DNA from: Tannerella sp.
GTDB taxonomy: Bacteria; Bacteroidota; Bacteroidia; Bacteroidales; Tannerellaceae
Assembly: GCA_031261145.1 (NCBI GenBank)
Contig: JAISJX010000380.1
Location: 1 to 5,609 of the forward strand
Reading direction: 5' to 3'
Length of the DNA stretch: 5,609 nucleotides
The notes below the pieces were generated by a model. It saw only the letters and a program-made list of their open reading frames with translations, searched no databases and was not told where the DNA came from. A program made the translations under genes and the position numbers. Below are positions 122 to 5,609 of the stretch, in pieces. Position 1 is the stretch's first letter, and each line of letters starts with the position of its first letter.

Positions 122-1732
122 ATGAAACTTATTACCCGGTTTTATATCTGTGTGATTGCCCTGTTTGTTATACTGCCCAGCGTGACGGCCGAGAACAGGA
201 TGGAACTGCAACGCGATACGTTGCAGGATGACGTGCCGTCAACCTTGCGGCAACCGTTGGACAGTTGTCCGGTAGTCATGTCGGGCGACACGCTTTTTTT
301 CGTCTATGGCGGGCTGGGGAGCATCAAGGTGGAGAAACGCGCCGCCATTGTTTCCGAGAATATTGCAGAGTTAAAGAACATCCCGTTTTTCGATGCGGAT
401 TCGCTCATCACCGAAGATGGCGCTGAGTGTAGAATCGTTTACAAGCAAAACGTCATTTTCGCCGTCACAGACCGGCAAGCCGGCTATCTGCAGCAGAGTA
501 AAATTGATTTGGCCGGGGCGTATTGCGCCCGCATCGTTGAGGCTGTGACAGACGCACGCTCAACCGTCGTGTGGCAAACCGTCCTGAAACGGGTAGGAGA
601 GGGGATTCTGTTGGTTTTGATCACATTCTTCCTGCTCAAATACCTGAATATCCTCTACCGGAAAACACGCGCGTATATCCTGACGCGGACTGGCAAAACG
701 ATTAAAAAGCTCTATTACCTGCTGGATGCCGAAAAACAGGTTGCGATTGGCGCCGCTATCCTCCGTATCCTGCGCCTGGGGCTTTATCTCATTATACTTT
801 ATTTTTTCCTGTTGATTCTTTTCCTGTTGGTTCCGGGGACAAGATGGCTATCCGACAGACTGTTGGGATACATCATATCTCCTTTGAAAAGCCTTGTTAT
901 GACCGTCTGGGATTTTATTCCCGACTTGATTATCATCATTATTATCATCTTTATTTTCCGGCTTATTCTCAAAGCCATACACGCCATTTCCGAGAAAGTA
1001 AGCAACGGAAGCATTACCATAAACGGGTTCCATGCCGAATGGACGTCGGCTACGTTCAATATTATCAGGGTTATTCTCTATATCTTCATGTTTATCCTGA
1101 TATTCCCCCATCTGCCGAACTCCAATTCAGGCATCTTCCAGGGCGTTTCGGTTTTTGTCGGGGTATTGATTTCGTTGGGTTCTACGTCGTTGATCGGTAA
1201 CCTGATGGCGGGATTGGTCATCACCTACATGCGTCCGTTCAAAATCGGCGACCGTATCCGGGTTGGCGAAAACCTGGGGAATGTAATCGAAAAAAGTTCG
1301 TTGGTGACCCGCATAAGGACAACTAAAAACGAGATTGTCACCATTCCCAATTCGAGTGTCATGTCCACCCAGACCATCAATTATACCGCCTCGGCCACGG
1401 AGTATGGTTTGATTTTGCACACCTCCGTCACGATGGGCTACGAAATATCCTGGCGGCGGATGCACGAGTTGCTGATAGAAGCCGCGATGAAAACGCCTGA
1501 TGTACTGGCCGAACCCAAGCCTTTTGTGCTGCAAACCGCCCTGGATGACTTCTATGTGCGCTACGAAATCAATCTCTATACAAGCCAGGCCAACGAAATG
1601 ATACGAATCTATTCCGACCTGAATAAGAATATCCAGGATATATTCAACCGCGAAGGAATCGAGTTAATGGCGCCTCACATCTACGGCTATCGCAGGATGG
1701 ACAAGGCAGCGATCCCAGAAGAATTTATATGA
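122..1732 (+). CDS. MscS-family mechanosensitive ion channel with exported N-terminal domain
   Basis: This 536-residue protein is expected to be an inner-membrane channel that opens under membrane tension and releases solutes during hypo-osmotic shock. Residues 1-23 look like a signal peptide (cut after VTA). Residues 24-155 form a soluble, presumably periplasmic domain that I do not recognise. Hydrophobic segments lie near 160-178, 215-237, 266-285 and 311-330. The pore-lining helix and start of the MscS beta domain are at about 341-381, with the family signature MRPFKIGD at 370-377. IPNSSV (408-413) is the usual beta-domain motif, and residues 430-525 form the cytoplasmic alpha/beta vestibule. 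By my alignment to E. coli MscS, gate Leu109 corresponds to Leu352, Leu105 to Val348 and kink Gly113 to Ser356. It is about twice the length of E. coli MscS (286 residues), the extra being the N-terminal domain and additional membrane helices. Residues 270-276 are seven consecutive isoleucines. The start is the first in-frame ATG after the promoter and gives an intact signal peptide. Family assignment is firm; gating properties are not known. Confidence 0.95.
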   Translation: MKLITRFYICVIALFVILPSVTAENRMELQRDTLQDDVPSTLRQPLDSCPVVMSGDTLFFVYGGLGSIKVEKRAAIVSENIAELKNIPFFDADSLITEDGAECRIVYKQNVIFAVTDRQAGYLQQSKIDLAGAYCARIVEAVTDARSTVVWQTVLKRVGEGILLVLITFFLLKYLNILYRKTRAYILTRTGKTIKKLYYLLDAEKQVAIGAAILRILRLGLYLIILYFFLLILFLLVPGTRWLSDRLLGYIISPLKSLVMTVWDFIPDLIIIIIIIFIFRLILKAIHAISEKVSNGSITINGFHAEWTSATFNIIRVILYIFMFILIFPHLPNSNSGIFQGVSVFVGVLISLGSTSLIGNLMAGLVITYMRPFKIGDRIRVGENLGNVIEKSSLVTRIRTTKNEIVTIPNSSVMSTQTINYTASATEYGLILHTSVTMGYEISWRRMHELLIEAAMKTPDVLAEPKPFVLQTALDDFYVRYEINLYTSQANEMIRIYSDLNKNIQDIFNREGIELMAPHIYGYRRMDKAAIPEEFI

Positions 1733-1766: not shown

Positions 1767-3581
1767 TTACCAGAAATACATATACAGGAATATCAATATT
1801 CCGCAGATACCGATAGCTGCCAGGTTAAACGGCGTTGTTGTCTTAAACAGACCTTTCGTCAGCGTCAAAGCCTTGTTGTTCATTGTCGGGAACCGGGCGT
1901 CCGTAATCATGACGACGCCTAACAGGATAAAGCTGACGATAAGCGTATAAACCGAATCTAATGCGAAGTCCGCATACCGTTTCAGGAAAAACGCCGCCAC
2001 GATACCCATCAATGCCGGCACAGCGATAAACAAACTCCCCCGGCGAACCCTGACCGCCCGTTCCGGTGCGCTCAATCCGGGCGCCGCCGTTTTGTTTTTC
2101 TTCTCCGCAAGGCTCATGCCGACAAATACAACCGTCAGGATGATGAACACGTACCCGATACGCACGATAAAAGGCATGTCCGGCGCTACAAACTTGAACA
2201 CAAACGCCACCGGCAGCGTGAGAATGGCCGTCCACAACGCCGCATTCGATGTTGCCTGCCGCCAGAACACCCCAAGGAAGAATATCAGGAACACACCCGG
2301 ATAGATAAAGCCCGTAAATTCCTGTATCAGCGGATAGACCTGGTCGAATGACGCAAATTTAGGCGCGATAAGCGTGGCGATCAGCAAGGCGACGAAGGCG
2401 ACGATTCGCCCCACCCGTACTAAGTCTTTGTTGGTCGCCTCCGGTTTGATGTACCCTTTATAAATATCCATGGTGAAAATGGTGGACGTACTGTTGATGA
2501 TGGAACTTAGCGACGATACCACAGCCGCTACTAATGCCGCAAAAGCCAGTCCGGTAACGCCCGGCGGGATAATATTGTTGAGCAGCCACGGATATGCCTC
2601 GTCCGATTTGCTCACATCCGCATGTAGCACGTAAGCGACGATACCCGGTATGACCACCAACAAGGGAACCAGCAGTTTGAGGAATCCGGCGAACGCCAGT
2701 CCGTATTGCGCTTCCCTGACGTTCTTCGCCGCCAGCCCGCGCTGAATGATATATTGGTTAAATCCCCAGAAGCACGTATTGGTCAGCCACATCGACCCCA
2801 GGATAACCGCCAGTCCCGGCAAATCCAGAAATGCATCCTTCACCGCGCCTTCCGTCCCGTCGGGAATCGTGTAAATGCCTTTTTCGATAATCAGATGGAA
2901 GCGTTCGGGCGCCTGAACGACGAGTTCCTTGAATCCCGCCAGAATGCCTTCGCCGCCACTCACCGCATTCAACGCGAGGAAGGTGGTAACCAATCCGCCG
3001 CCTATCAGGAACACGATTTGTATCACATCCGTCCATGCCACAGCTTTCAGTCCGCCCCACAACGAATAAATCGCCGAAAAAACCGACAGCCCGATAATTC
3101 CGTAAATCAGCGGGATGCCCAGCACCTTTTCGAGCGCCAGCGCCCCCAGGTAACTCACCGAAGTAAGATTGACAAACACATACATCAGCAGCCAGAAGAT
3201 GGATAAACTCGTACTCACCCTGCGGTCGTAGCGCATGGTAAGGAACTGGGGCATAGTGTAAATTCCCGTTTTCAGGAACACCGGCAGGAAGAACTTCGCG
3301 ACGACCAGCAAGACGGCGGCGGCTATCCATTCATAACACGCGACGGCCAGGCCGATGGCATATCCTGACCCCGACATGGCGATAAAATGTTCCGCGGAGA
3401 TGTTCGCCGCAATTAACGATGCGCCGATAGCCCACCAGGTAAGCGACCGGTTAGCAAGGAAATAGTCCGACGTCGTTTTCTCCGACCCTTTTTTGGTGCG
3501 CGACACCCACAATCCGACCCCTACGATAATGACTGCATATACAATAAAGATAATCCAGTCTATGAATGCAAATTTATTCAT
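1767..3581 (-). CDS. Sodium/sugar symporter, SGLT branch of the SSS family
   Basis: This 604-residue inner-membrane protein is expected to import a sugar coupled to sodium, with a LeuT-type fold and about 14 helices. From memory it aligns closely with Vibrio parahaemolyticus vSGLT through most of its length, including TSDYFLANRSLTWWAIGASL, WTDVIQ, WGFNQYIIQR and NSTSTIFTMDIYKGYI. The vSGLT Na2-site residues map to Ala58, Ile61, Ala353, Ser356 and Ser357, all conserved, and Asp189 maps to Asp185. Sugar-contact residues Glu88, Asn260, Lys294 and Gln428 map to Glu84, Asn268, Lys302 and Gln420, also conserved. Two positions differ. vSGLT Gln69 is His65 here, as in human SGLT1 (His83). Inner-gate Tyr263 is Phe271, followed by the conserved Trp272. 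It is about 60 residues longer than vSGLT, mainly in the hydrophilic linker at about 492-512 and the region before the last helix. The ATG at 3581 is preferred over an in-frame TTG directly before it (3584-3582). The exact sugar cannot be read from sequence, and no polysaccharide-utilisation genes adjoin it. Confidence 0.93.
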   Translation of the reverse strand: MNKFAFIDWIIFIVYAVIIVGVGLWVSRTKKGSEKTTSDYFLANRSLTWWAIGASLIAANISAEHFIAMSGSGYAIGLAVACYEWIAAAVLLVVAKFFLPVFLKTGIYTMPQFLTMRYDRRVSTSLSIFWLLMYVFVNLTSVSYLGALALEKVLGIPLIYGIIGLSVFSAIYSLWGGLKAVAWTDVIQIVFLIGGGLVTTFLALNAVSGGEGILAGFKELVVQAPERFHLIIEKGIYTIPDGTEGAVKDAFLDLPGLAVILGSMWLTNTCFWGFNQYIIQRGLAAKNVREAQYGLAFAGFLKLLVPLLVVIPGIVAYVLHADVSKSDEAYPWLLNNIIPPGVTGLAFAALVAAVVSSLSSIINSTSTIFTMDIYKGYIKPEATNKDLVRVGRIVAFVALLIATLIAPKFASFDQVYPLIQEFTGFIYPGVFLIFFLGVFWRQATSNAALWTAILTLPVAFVFKFVAPDMPFIVRIGYVFIILTVVFVGMSLAEKKNKTAAPGLSAPERAVRVRRGSLFIAVPALMGIVAAFFLKRYADFALDSVYTLIVSFILLGVVMITDARFPTMNNKALTLTKGLFKTTTPFNLAAIGICGILIFLYMYFW

Positions 3582-3657
3582 CAATAATGGTTTTTAATTT
3601 GAAATCCACTCCGGCTCATCCCGGAACGGAATAACTGCTGCTTCAAAAAAATTTCCG

Positions 3658-3888: not shown

Positions 3889-3926
3889 TTGTTTTTTCAA
3901 AAAATCCGGAGAGACACAAATAATCT

Positions 3927-3958
3927 AATTGCTAAAACAAAACCTGAAATTGCTAAAA
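3927..3958. repeat. 11-bp direct repeat, 21-bp period
   Basis: AATTGCTAAAA occurs at 3927-3937 and again at 3948-3958. The start-to-start distance is 21 bases, about two helical turns, so two bound protein subunits would face the same side. It is about 100 bases upstream of the trp promoter. AT-rich composition makes chance possible, and no regulator is identified. Confidence 0.5.
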
Positions 3959-4054
3959 ATAATTTTTTTTGCGATGGAATCGTCTTTCTATGTATCAAGT
4001 AGTTAGTCTTAATTTTTTTTATGAATTGGAAGGCGAAAAAAACTCCAAAATAGT

Positions 4055-4086
4055 TTTGTTTAATAAAAATAATCGTCTAATTTTGC
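4055..4086 (+). promoter_or_regulatory. Strong Bacteroidota-type promoter for trp leader and trpB
   Basis: TTTG at 4055-4058, then exactly 19 bases, then TAATTTTGC at 4078-4086. This is a full match to TTTG-N19-TAnnTTTG with the preferred trailing pyrimidine. Transcription should begin near 4091-4094, about 20 bases before the leader-peptide ATG at 4113 and about 210 bases before trpB. That long leader holds the attenuator. Confidence 0.75.
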
Positions 4087-4112
4087 GTCACGATTAAATA
4101 AAACATCATTCT

Positions 4113-4181
4113 ATGAGCTTTTTGAATAAGACATTTTATTGGCGTCGGCTGAACTTTTTTGTAGTAAACAAGATGGTTTAG
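4113..4181 (+). CDS. trpL: trp leader peptide, 22 residues
   Basis: A short frame runs from ATG at 4113 to TAG at 4179-4181, about 20 bases after the predicted transcription start. It begins MSFLNKTFYWRR. Codons 8-10 are TTT TAT TGG, so Phe, Tyr and Trp are consecutive, and two further Phe codons follow at 15-16. The single Trp codon (4140-4142) sits at the 5' base of hairpin 1:2, and the stop codon lies inside segment 2. Both are the positions needed for a ribosome to choose between the terminator and the antiterminator. Its role would be regulatory, with the peptide itself probably inactive. Upstream bases are A-rich without a Shine-Dalgarno sequence, as usual in this phylum. Translation is inferred from position, not shown. 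Confidence 0.75.
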   Translation: MSFLNKTFYWRRLNFFVVNKMV

Positions 4182-4253
4182 TCGGGCGTCAAATGTTATT
4201 CAAATGAAATCATAAAGAAGACCTGTTGTTTACTGAAAACAGCAGGTCTTTTT
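4139..4253 (+). promoter_or_regulatory. Ribosome-stalling transcription attenuator of trpB
   Basis: Three mutually exclusive pairings can be drawn. Hairpin 1:2 pairs 4139-4154 with 4176-4192 (15 pairs, one G-G mismatch, one bulged T), with an inner TTGT/ACAA helix (4159-4162 with 4168-4171). Antiterminator 2:3 pairs AGTAAACAA (4163-4171) with its exact complement TTGTTTACT (4226-4234), plus GGTTT (4175-4179) with AGACC (4219-4223). Hairpin 3:4 is the terminator at 4218-4250. A ribosome stalled at the Trp codon 4140-4142 would cover segment 1 and free segment 2 to pair with 3, allowing read-through. A ribosome reaching the TAG at 4179 would cover segment 2, so 3:4 forms and transcription stops. 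The pairings are seen directly; the mechanism follows enterobacterial trp attenuation. Confidence 0.8.
4218..4253 (+). terminator. Intrinsic terminator within the trp leader (3:4 hairpin)
   Basis: AAGACCTGTTGTTT (4218-4231) pairs with AAACAGCAGGTCTT (4237-4250): 14 pairs with one T-G wobble and a 5-base loop (ACTGA). Five T end at 4253. No other plus-strand gene precedes it except the leader peptide, so it must act inside the trpB transcript and not at the end of another unit. Confidence 0.85.
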
Positions 4254-4303
4254 AGTTTGTTGAAAACGTAAATTTGAGTATGAATCATATTAATTAATGT
4301 AAC

Positions 4304-5609
4304 ATGGGAAAAACAAAAAGATTTCTTCTGAGTGAAAATGAGATTCCGGAAAAATGGTATAACATCGTGGCCGATATGAAAACCAAGCCGCGTCCTATCC
4401 TGCATCCGGGTACGAAACAACCCCTGAAACCCGAAGATTTGTATCCTATCTTCGCGGAAGAGTTATCGAAACAGGAATTAAACCAGACTGACGCCTGGTT
4501 TGATATCCCCGACGGAGTGCGCGATAAATACAAGGCATACCGTTCGACGCCGCTTGTTCGCGCGTACGATCTGGAAAAAGCATTGGATACGCCGGCGCAT
4601 ATCTATTTCAAGAACGAAAGTGTCAGCCCGGTCGGTTCGCACAAATTAAACTCGGCTTTAGCGCAAGCCTACTTTTGTAAAGAACAGGGTATTACGAACA
4701 TTACGACAGAGACAGGCGCCGGACAGTGGGGTACAGCCTTATCGTATGCCGCCAAAGCGTTCGGGCTGGAACTGGCCGTTTATATGGTGAAAATCAGTTA
4801 TGAACAAAAGCCTTATCGCCGTTCGTTGATGCAAACATGGGGTGCACAGGTAGTAGCCTCTCCGAGTATGTCCACCAAGGCAGGCCGTAAAATCCTGACC
4901 GAAAACCCGACGTACCGCGGAAGTTTGGGAACGGCTATTTCGGAAGCCATCGAATTGGCCATGCAGACGCCTAACTGTAAATATACTTTAGGTAGTGTAT
5001 TGAATCATGTCACTTTACACCAGACTGTTATCGGGCTTGAAGCCGAAAAACAAATGGAACTGGCCGGTGAATATCCTGATATTATCATCGGATGTTTCGG
5101 TGGCGGCTCGAACTTCGGTGGAATCTCGTTCCCGTTTATGCGGCATACGATTCTGGAAGGCAAAAAAACACGTTTCATCGCAGCCGAACCGTCCTCTTGT
5201 CCCAAACTGACACGGGGTGTTTTCCAGTATGATTTTGGCGATGAAATCGGCTACACGCCGCTTTTACCGATGTACACGCTCGGACATAATTTTGCACCCG
5301 CTCATATTCATGCCGGGGGATTGCGTTATCATGGAGCCGGTACCATTGTCAGCCAATTGATTAATGATAATTATATGGAAGCGGTGGATATTGATCAGTT
5401 GGATTCGTTTGAAGCCGGCGTTTTGTTTGCACAAACCGAAGGAATCATTCCTGCGCCCGAATCGGCGCATGCCATCGCTGCCGCCATCAATGAAGCGAAG
5501 AAAGCGAAAGAAGAAGGCGTACAGAAAACCATCCTGTTTAACCTCTCAGGACACGGTTTAATCGATATGACTGCCTACGATCAGTATTTTGCCGGCGATT
5601 TGCTGAATT
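4304..5609 (+). CDS. trpB: Tryptophan synthase beta chain, TrpB2 type (3' end outside window)
   Basis: This PLP enzyme condenses indole with serine (O-phosphoserine has been reported for some TrpB2 proteins) to make tryptophan in the cytoplasm. The 435 codons visible run off the right edge; TrpB2 proteins are about 450 residues, so perhaps 15-20 are missing. GSHKLNSA (111-118) carries the PLP Schiff-base lysine Lys114. TETGAGQWGTA (135-145) holds the catalytic glutamate Glu136. GCFGGGSNFGG (263-273) binds the cofactor phosphate. SGHGLID (415-421) supplies Ser415 next to the pyridine nitrogen, where classical TrpB has SGRGDKD. The long N-terminal extension (1-80), GQW instead of GQH, and the HIHAGGLRYHG segment (334-344) mark the TrpB2 branch rather than the TrpA-partnered TrpB1. 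An upstream in-frame ATG at 4280 is closed by a stop after five codons, so ATG 4304 is the start. The gene has its own promoter and attenuator. No trpA or other trp gene is visible, but downstream genes cannot be excluded. Confidence 0.95.
   Translation, partial: MGKTKRFLLSENEIPEKWYNIVADMKTKPRPILHPGTKQPLKPEDLYPIFAEELSKQELNQTDAWFDIPDGVRDKYKAYRSTPLVRAYDLEKALDTPAHIYFKNESVSPVGSHKLNSALAQAYFCKEQGITNITTETGAGQWGTALSYAAKAFGLELAVYMVKISYEQKPYRRSLMQTWGAQVVASPSMSTKAGRKILTENPTYRGSLGTAISEAIELAMQTPNCKYTLGSVLNHVTLHQTVIGLEAEKQMELAGEYPDIIIGCFGGGSNFGGISFPFMRHTILEGKKTRFIAAEPSSCPKLTRGVFQYDFGDEIGYTPLLPMYTLGHNFAPAHIHAGGLRYHGAGTIVSQLINDNYMEAVDIDQLDSFEAGVLFAQTEGIIPAPESAHAIAAAINEAKKAKEEGVQKTILFNLSGHGLIDMTAYDQYFAGDLLN

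Follow-up and report, generated by a model that had tools for sequence, protein, structure and literature searches.

A non-coding, AT-rich gap of 0.5 kb separates a trpB2 gene from a divergent symporter gene in the Tannerella sp. DNA analysed here (the window, meaning the whole stretch of 5,609 nucleotides). The gap contains a leader that a first-pass annotation had taken for a classical tryptophan attenuator, which raises the question of whether, and by what arrangement, this leader ties the gene to the supply of charged tRNATrp. The product of the gene scored above the curated cut-offs of the profiles NF009057 (693 bits) and TIGR01415 (599 bits), and its score against the canonical trpB profile TIGR00263 was 144 bits, with the cut-off of 392 not reached. 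TrpB2 enzymes join indole and serine, and the trpB2 gene of the window is likely an indole-salvage gene whose enzyme converts indole to tryptophan. For a TrpB2 relative of B. thetaiotaomicron, conversion of cross-fed indole to tryptophan is an inference stated by the authors of one report (PMC11535334). The nearest TrpB2 proteins, in the best 80 of 419 TrpB2 loci of a genome collection, were 80–89% identical and came from Bacteroidales genomes where the order was given. A tblastn search with the symporter and channel genes gave no match in these 80 loci (at most 3 kb per side), while TrpB2 as the positive control matched all 80. The symporter gene runs in the opposite direction, so that the hairpin at 4215-4253 is not its terminator and lies in the 5′ UTR of trpB2.

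Table 1 Features of the window around the leader of trpB2.
Feature	Position	Strand	Remarks
Mechanosensitive-channel-like gene	122-1732		
Sodium/solute symporter gene	1767-3584	-	Divergent from trpB2
TTTG, -33-like element	4055-4058	+	23 nt 5′ of the -7-like motif
TAATTTTG, -7-like element (TAnnTTTG)	4078-4085	+	Bacteroidota-like promoter pattern
Leader peptide ORF, 22 codons, MSFLNKTFYWRRLNFFVVNKMV, stop TAG	4113-4181	+	
Control Trp codon TGG (codon 10)	4140-4142	+	Sole Trp codon of the window leader
1:2 hairpin	4122-4203 (about)	+	-31.3 to -32.6 kcal/mol; z -5.56 at MFE -31.3
Segment 2 antiterminator core, TAGTAAACAA	4162-4171	+	Partner 4227-4236
Segment 3, TTGTTTACTG	4227-4236	+	End of terminator 5′ arm plus loop
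3:4 intrinsic terminator with T run	4215-4253	+	17 pairs; -21.4 kcal/mol
trpB2 (TrpB-like PLP enzyme)	4304-5608	+	Extends past the window end

All the parts named in the first-pass annotation are present between 4078 and 4258: a promoter-like motif, a leader ORF, a 1:2 hairpin, a 9-bp 2:3 pairing and a 3:4 terminator with a T run. The motifs at 4078-4085 and 4055-4058 resemble the -7 and -33 elements of the Bacteroidota promoter pattern. Among the 20 trpB2 leaders aligned below, TAnnTTTG lay 25–47 nt 5′ of the leader start in 19, the exception being L010, and TTTG lay 22–27 nt 5′ of that motif in 11; both are raw counts, uncorrected for chance, and the -7-like motif is AT-rich. A sigma-70 scan gave no promoter at the 4078-4085 site. 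The leader peptide is rich in aromatic residues (F3, F8, Y9, W10, F15 and F16). Its single Trp codon might mean that the switch is less sensitive or responds to aromatic amino acids more broadly, or it might stem from an erroneous base at 4146-4148, which reads CGG in the window and is the place of the second W of W-R-W in 12 of the 20 aligned leaders. The stop codon had been placed inside segment 2; the TAG (4179-4181) falls within the 3′ strand of the 1:2 hairpin, downstream of the 9-nt antiterminator core.

The RNA from 4091 to 4260 had a predicted folding energy of -59.5 kcal/mol (z = -7.84; equalled by none of 200 shuffles), with 1:2 and 3:4 as its main hairpins. One terminator site was found in the region 3900-4400, against a shuffle mean of 0.3. 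The duplex between segments 2 and 3 (4162-4171 with 4227-4236) consists of nine Watson-Crick pairs and one U-G pair, AGTAAACAA (4163-4171) being exactly complementary to TTGTTTACT (4227-4235). This complementarity was equalled or beaten by 139 of 3000 segment shuffles and by 79 of 1500 whole-leader shuffles. It is therefore not rare in the window alone, so that one sequence is no proof and a comparison with relatives is needed. The fold predicted from 4156, roughly the edge of a ribosome stalled on the Trp codon, to 4240, before the 3′ arm of the terminator is complete, contains the antiterminator (-15.3 kcal/mol), and when the 3′ arm is included the terminator is predicted to win over the antiterminator (-27.7 kcal/mol). 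Because the free RNA with the 3′ arm folds as the terminator, antitermination must be kinetic. Kinetic switching is usual in attenuators.

These features, together with the comparisons below, suggest that the leader is a ribosome-mediated transcription attenuator coupling trpB2 expression to charged tRNATrp, a reading to which we give a probability of roughly 0.87. It has a short Trp-codon ORF, mutually exclusive 2:3 and 3:4 pairings and a 1:2 protector, the last of which is weak in several relatives; related Trp-codon leaders also precede trpB1 and trpE. Transcription would start near 4091 from the Bacteroidota-type promoter. When Trp-tRNA is ample, the ribosome would reach the stop codon at 4179 and either cover segment 2 or leave and let 1:2 form; with segment 2 covered or held in 1:2, the geometry predicts that transcription stops at the 3:4 terminator. 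Under a shortage of Trp-tRNA, the ribosome would stall at codon 10 with its front edge near 4152-4156 (given the usual ribosome footprint), disrupting 1:2 and leaving segment 2 free. The free segment 2 would then capture the end of the terminator 5′ arm and the loop, and trpB2 would be transcribed. The likely purpose of such a switch would be to make TrpB2, probably an indole-to-tryptophan enzyme, under tryptophan shortage.

Relatives of the leader were sought upstream of trpB2 in the best 80 of 419 TrpB2 loci. A similar leader occurred in 19 of the 80, and these 19 with the window formed an alignment (A1), chosen by eye for an ORF with WWW or a W-R-W-like motif, followed by a terminator of the GCCTGTTGTTT type (in the member L040 the terminator is GCTATTGTTT). 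Seven loci with a WWW leader and another terminator (L030, L051, L058, L067, L069, L071 and L080) were excluded from A1. These seven may form a further, distinct group of attenuators of trpB2; in L051 and L058, GGAGG was seen by eye opposite CCTCC in the terminator loop. Counted against the attenuator reading, 54 of the best 80 loci had no such leader in the scan, three of them with less than 250 nt upstream. The 54 include the locus of the closest TrpB2 (L001, 89% identity, Candidatus Symbiothrix), in which no such leader was found upstream, so that the leader may be readily gained or lost.

All the aligned leader peptides share a tryptophan codon; examples are MILLNNVFSWRWLDLIVVNSEV (L002), MNFTDSLLYWRWQNYCCKQ (L017) and MSFFDAEFSWRWLNYRFKQ (L010). 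The first TGG was invariant in all 20 sequences of A1, in the context W-R-W in 12, WWW in three, WHW in one and W-R-R, W-R-C or W-R-L in four, including the window. The peptides carry one to four Trp residues (median 2), with two to four in 16 leaders and one in four. Sequence comparison thus supports the claim of a classical tryptophan attenuator ahead of trpB2, since 19 other trpB2 leaders retain both the Trp codon and the terminator. In 15 of the 20 leaders, at least one of the two codons preceding the conserved TGG encoded Phe or Tyr, which makes specificity for tryptophan uncertain. These codons may reflect either AT-rich codon use or wider aromatic sensing. The best surviving alternative is accordingly that the leader senses a general shortage of Phe, Tyr and Trp, since a ribosome halted on the Phe or Tyr codons would likewise leave segment 2 accessible, as the aromatic residues of the window peptide would allow. 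We consider it improbable, because five of the 20 leaders have no Phe or Tyr at this place although the Trp codon is invariant and mostly repeated, because the leaders of trp operons carry runs of Trp codons, and because AT-rich DNA will tend to contain Phe TTT and Tyr TAT codons in any case.

The check on compensatory changes proposed with the first-pass annotation bore out the alternative helices in the trpB2 leaders, for 2:3 and, less evenly, for 1:2. Within A1, 88.1% of the 2:3 cells can pair, compared with 32–60% when the partners are slid by 1–3 columns. The 2:3 covariation score was 0.318 against 0.160 in shuffles, none of 500 being as high. Two of the five 2:3 measures were less extreme: six of the ten pairs changed on both sides, a count reached by 10 of 500 shuffles, and the number of pair types was reached by 35 of 500. 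On average, a leader's segment 2 also paired better with its own terminator than with those of the others (-9.2 vs -6.2 kcal/mol; none of 20,000 swaps as good in 20 leaders), although this and the other swap tests are inflated by the relatedness of the sequences and the 19 leaders had been picked for likeness to the window. Both-side changes were found in five and seven cells of columns 150 and 151, which lie in the terminator loop. Since these columns are not used by the terminator stem, the covariation supports 2:3 itself, beyond the terminator alone. The predicted 2:3 duplex is weak (-4.0 to -5.9 kcal/mol) in L014, L021, L022, L052 and L057.

Covariation bears directly on a second alternative, in which the 5′ UTR of trpB2 holds a constitutive or factor-controlled terminator and both the Trp ORF and the 2:3 match are accidental. 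The frequency with which shuffles of the segment or leader of the window reproduce the match speaks for it, as do L003, L009 and L065, which have a terminator-like hairpin and in which no Trp ORF was found upstream of trpB2. It is nevertheless very improbable given an invariant TGG and a 2:3 pairing that covaries across 20 leaders, the loop columns included. In the same three loci the hairpin lies about 40–100 nt 5′ of trpB2 (in L003 it is CAGCCTGTTGTTTCACAGCTTCAGGCTG) with a promoter-like motif further upstream, and it may represent an attenuator that has decayed or come under different control.

Support for 1:2 was less uniform. In the 1:2 swap test on 20 leaders, none of 20,000 swaps was as good, whereas a control region gave 19,671 of 20,000. 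The mean z of the 1:2 region over A1 was -1.74, with values below -1 in 12 leaders and above -1 in eight, in which the region is thus not clearly more stable than its shuffles. For 3:4, seven of the 13 predicted terminator pairs showed a both-side change in at least one sequence. RNAalifold recovered from A1 the terminator plus two pairs only; the absence of 1:2 is due to a register that differs between members, and swap tests were used instead. The helices and their coevolution thus come from the comparison of sequences, and from them we infer ribosome stalling and the response to tryptophan.

A covariance model (R1) was built from the 19 other leaders with the window left out. It matched the window at 4103-4258 with 96.2 bits and an E-value of 2e-18, the next match scoring 21.9 bits; E-values of R1 are rough owing to a short calibration. 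As the 19 had been chosen for likeness to the window, this hold-out speaks for the coherence of the set more than for an independent discovery.

In its arrangement the window leader resembles the trp attenuator of E. coli, which likewise has a Trp-codon leader peptide, 1:2 and 3:4 hairpins and a 2:3 pairing in which segment 3 is the 5′ arm of the terminator. It differs in preceding trpB2 rather than a biosynthetic operon, in having one Trp codon and in its Bacteroidota-like promoter; the likeness is one of arrangement, with no claim of common descent. TnaC is an arrest peptide. That the window peptide might be a TnaC-like arrest peptide sensing free tryptophan or indole, instead of a slow-codon sensor, is the least probable of the alternatives, for in spite of the single Trp codon in the window and three others of the 20 leaders, the indole that would be the substrate of the gene and the basic residue after Trp in many leaders, the residues after W-R vary, related leaders have the Trp runs that slow-codon sensing predicts, and the 2:3 geometry turns the gene on upon a stall at the Trp codon.

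It had been proposed that the leader is a member or a divergent relative of the RNA family Bacteroid-trp (Rfam RF01692), which appears as a table entry in Weinberg et al. 2010 (PMC2864571). The recommended search of the window with this model gave no match up to an E-value of 10. At the gathering threshold (49 bits) RF01692 matched none of 20 TrpB2 loci, 19 of which have a Trp leader, and up to an E-value of 1 it matched none of 15 trpB2-leader loci (11 re-fetched A1 members and four new ones). In the joint scan with those 15, it matched all five trpB1 or trpE leaders at E-values up to 0.69, one of them over gathering. Membership was therefore rejected. Other Rfam matches in the window, including Streptococcus sRNAs and microRNAs, were all below gathering and were taken as chance hairpin likeness.

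RF01692 itself was present in six of the 16 genomes behind the TrpB2 loci, and the genomes of L002, L004, L010 and L017 carry both RF01692 and a trpB2 leader on separate contigs. A trpB1 gene lies downstream of RF01692 in all six loci; the trpB1 product of L084 is over the TIGR00263 cut-off, as is that of L081, and the five products other than that of L084 are 71–82% identical to the L084 protein. R1 weakly finds the six RF01692 elements (39.7–49.2 bits), which points to a similar construction in both kinds of leader. Like the trpB2 leaders, they are Bacteroidales Trp-codon leaders with a 1:2 hairpin and a terminator. They differ from the window leader in having three Trp codons in each of the six loci and in preceding trpB1. 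In five of them, all but L084, the partner of the GTCGTGAG-like segment 2 is the terminator loop together with the 3′ arm, whereas in the trpB2 leaders an AAACAA is mostly paired with the 5′ arm and loop; this geometric criterion was derived in the present analysis and is no part of how Rfam defines the family. Of the earlier proposal, the second half thus appears to stand: compared at the sequence level, the trpB2 leader is probably a divergent relative of Bacteroid-trp, in the sense of similarity of build and not of established common descent.

Leaders of this build are not confined to trpB2. R1 matched at an E-value of 1e-3 or better in 63 of 393 sampled Bacteroidales genomes (stricter filters). 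At 30 loci with an R1 match, the following gene was trpB2 in six, trpB1 in 12, trpE in nine (best profile TIGR00564, with scores below its cut-off; incomplete within its locus in L125) and ilvD in one (L127); at L133 trpB1 lies further off and at L135 no gene was evident. Two ilvD leaders were found by R1, L127:159-311 (+) and L104:1501-1661 (+), with ilvD over the cut-off of NF009103. The L127 leader encodes MKLLNTVLVVVVVVVLKNIE, which is Val-rich and has no Trp, so that another amino acid is presumably sensed. The ilvD leaders are probably branched-chain amino acid attenuators, and like the trpB2 leaders they pair segment 2 with the 5′ arm and loop of the terminator.

An initial swap test of 28 trp-operon leaders against the 5′ arm and loop gave no signal (own -8.4, others -9.0 kcal/mol; 18,962 of 20,000 swaps as good), and this null led to a search that uncovered the use of the loop and 3′ arm in these leaders. 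A swap test on segments chosen by their own best match was biased and was set aside, and we relied on fixed windows. The trp-operon set consisted of 29 leaders, six from RF01692 loci and 23 others found with R1, of which 28 are followed by trpB1 or trpE; the remaining one, L100, ends in a short trpB1-like stub of 28 residues and was assigned to trpB1 by inspection. L122, L135 and the ilvD leaders were kept outside the 29, and L117 and L118 are near duplicates. The trpB2 side was represented by the A1 leaders, with the seven WWW leaders outside it. Terminators were located automatically, which put that of L014 in the wrong place both in the survey of segment 2 pairing and in the fixed-window test; those of L109 and L113 were overlooked in the survey.

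With fixed windows, 18 of the 20 trpB2 leaders paired segment 2 best with the terminator 5′ arm and loop, the exceptions L022 and L026 favouring the loop and 3′ arm. Their swap test was clear for the 5′ arm and loop (-10.5 kcal/mol with their own partner against -7.7 with those of other leaders; 0 of 20,000 swaps) and less so for the loop and 3′ arm (-6.7 against -6.0; 554 of 20,000). In the window the corresponding values were -10.8 and -5.0 kcal/mol. The trp-operon leaders showed the reverse pattern: 26 of 29 paired best with the loop and 3′ arm (-11.0 with their own partner against -9.4 with those of others; 0 of 20,000 swaps), and the values for the 5′ arm and loop were -6.8 against -7.4 (19,284 of 20,000). 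The segment 2 motif also differs, being GTCGTGAG-like and often containing a TGA stop in trp-operon leaders and CTCACGAC-like in trpB2 leaders. The arrangement of the trpB2 leaders is therefore E. coli-like and that of most trp-operon leaders sampled here is not. We did not find this distinction of two geometries in print in the open-licence literature searched. One tentative and rather doubtful extension is that Bacteroidales have evolved two Trp-sensing solutions separately, loop plus 3′ arm for the trp operon and 5′ arm plus loop, often with fewer Trp codons, for trpB2, by which de novo synthesis and indole salvage would answer different depths of tryptophan shortage.

These comparisons suggest that Bacteroidales regularly employ ribosome-mediated attenuation, ahead of trpB1, trpE, trpB2 and probably ilvD. 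No trpB2 attenuator in Bacteroidota was found in the open-licence literature, judged by titles and the openings of abstracts. The link of TrpB2 to tryptophan shortage is consistent with a role in indole salvage. R1 covers leaders that were missed here by Rfam 15. The analysis also sets two antiterminator geometries side by side in the same genomes. If the predicted response to tryptophan is borne out, it would bear on transcription-translation coupling in the phylum, about which, to our knowledge, little is known. Among the other upstream regions of trpB2, that of L034 contains a small SRP RNA and a tRNA (2363-2545).
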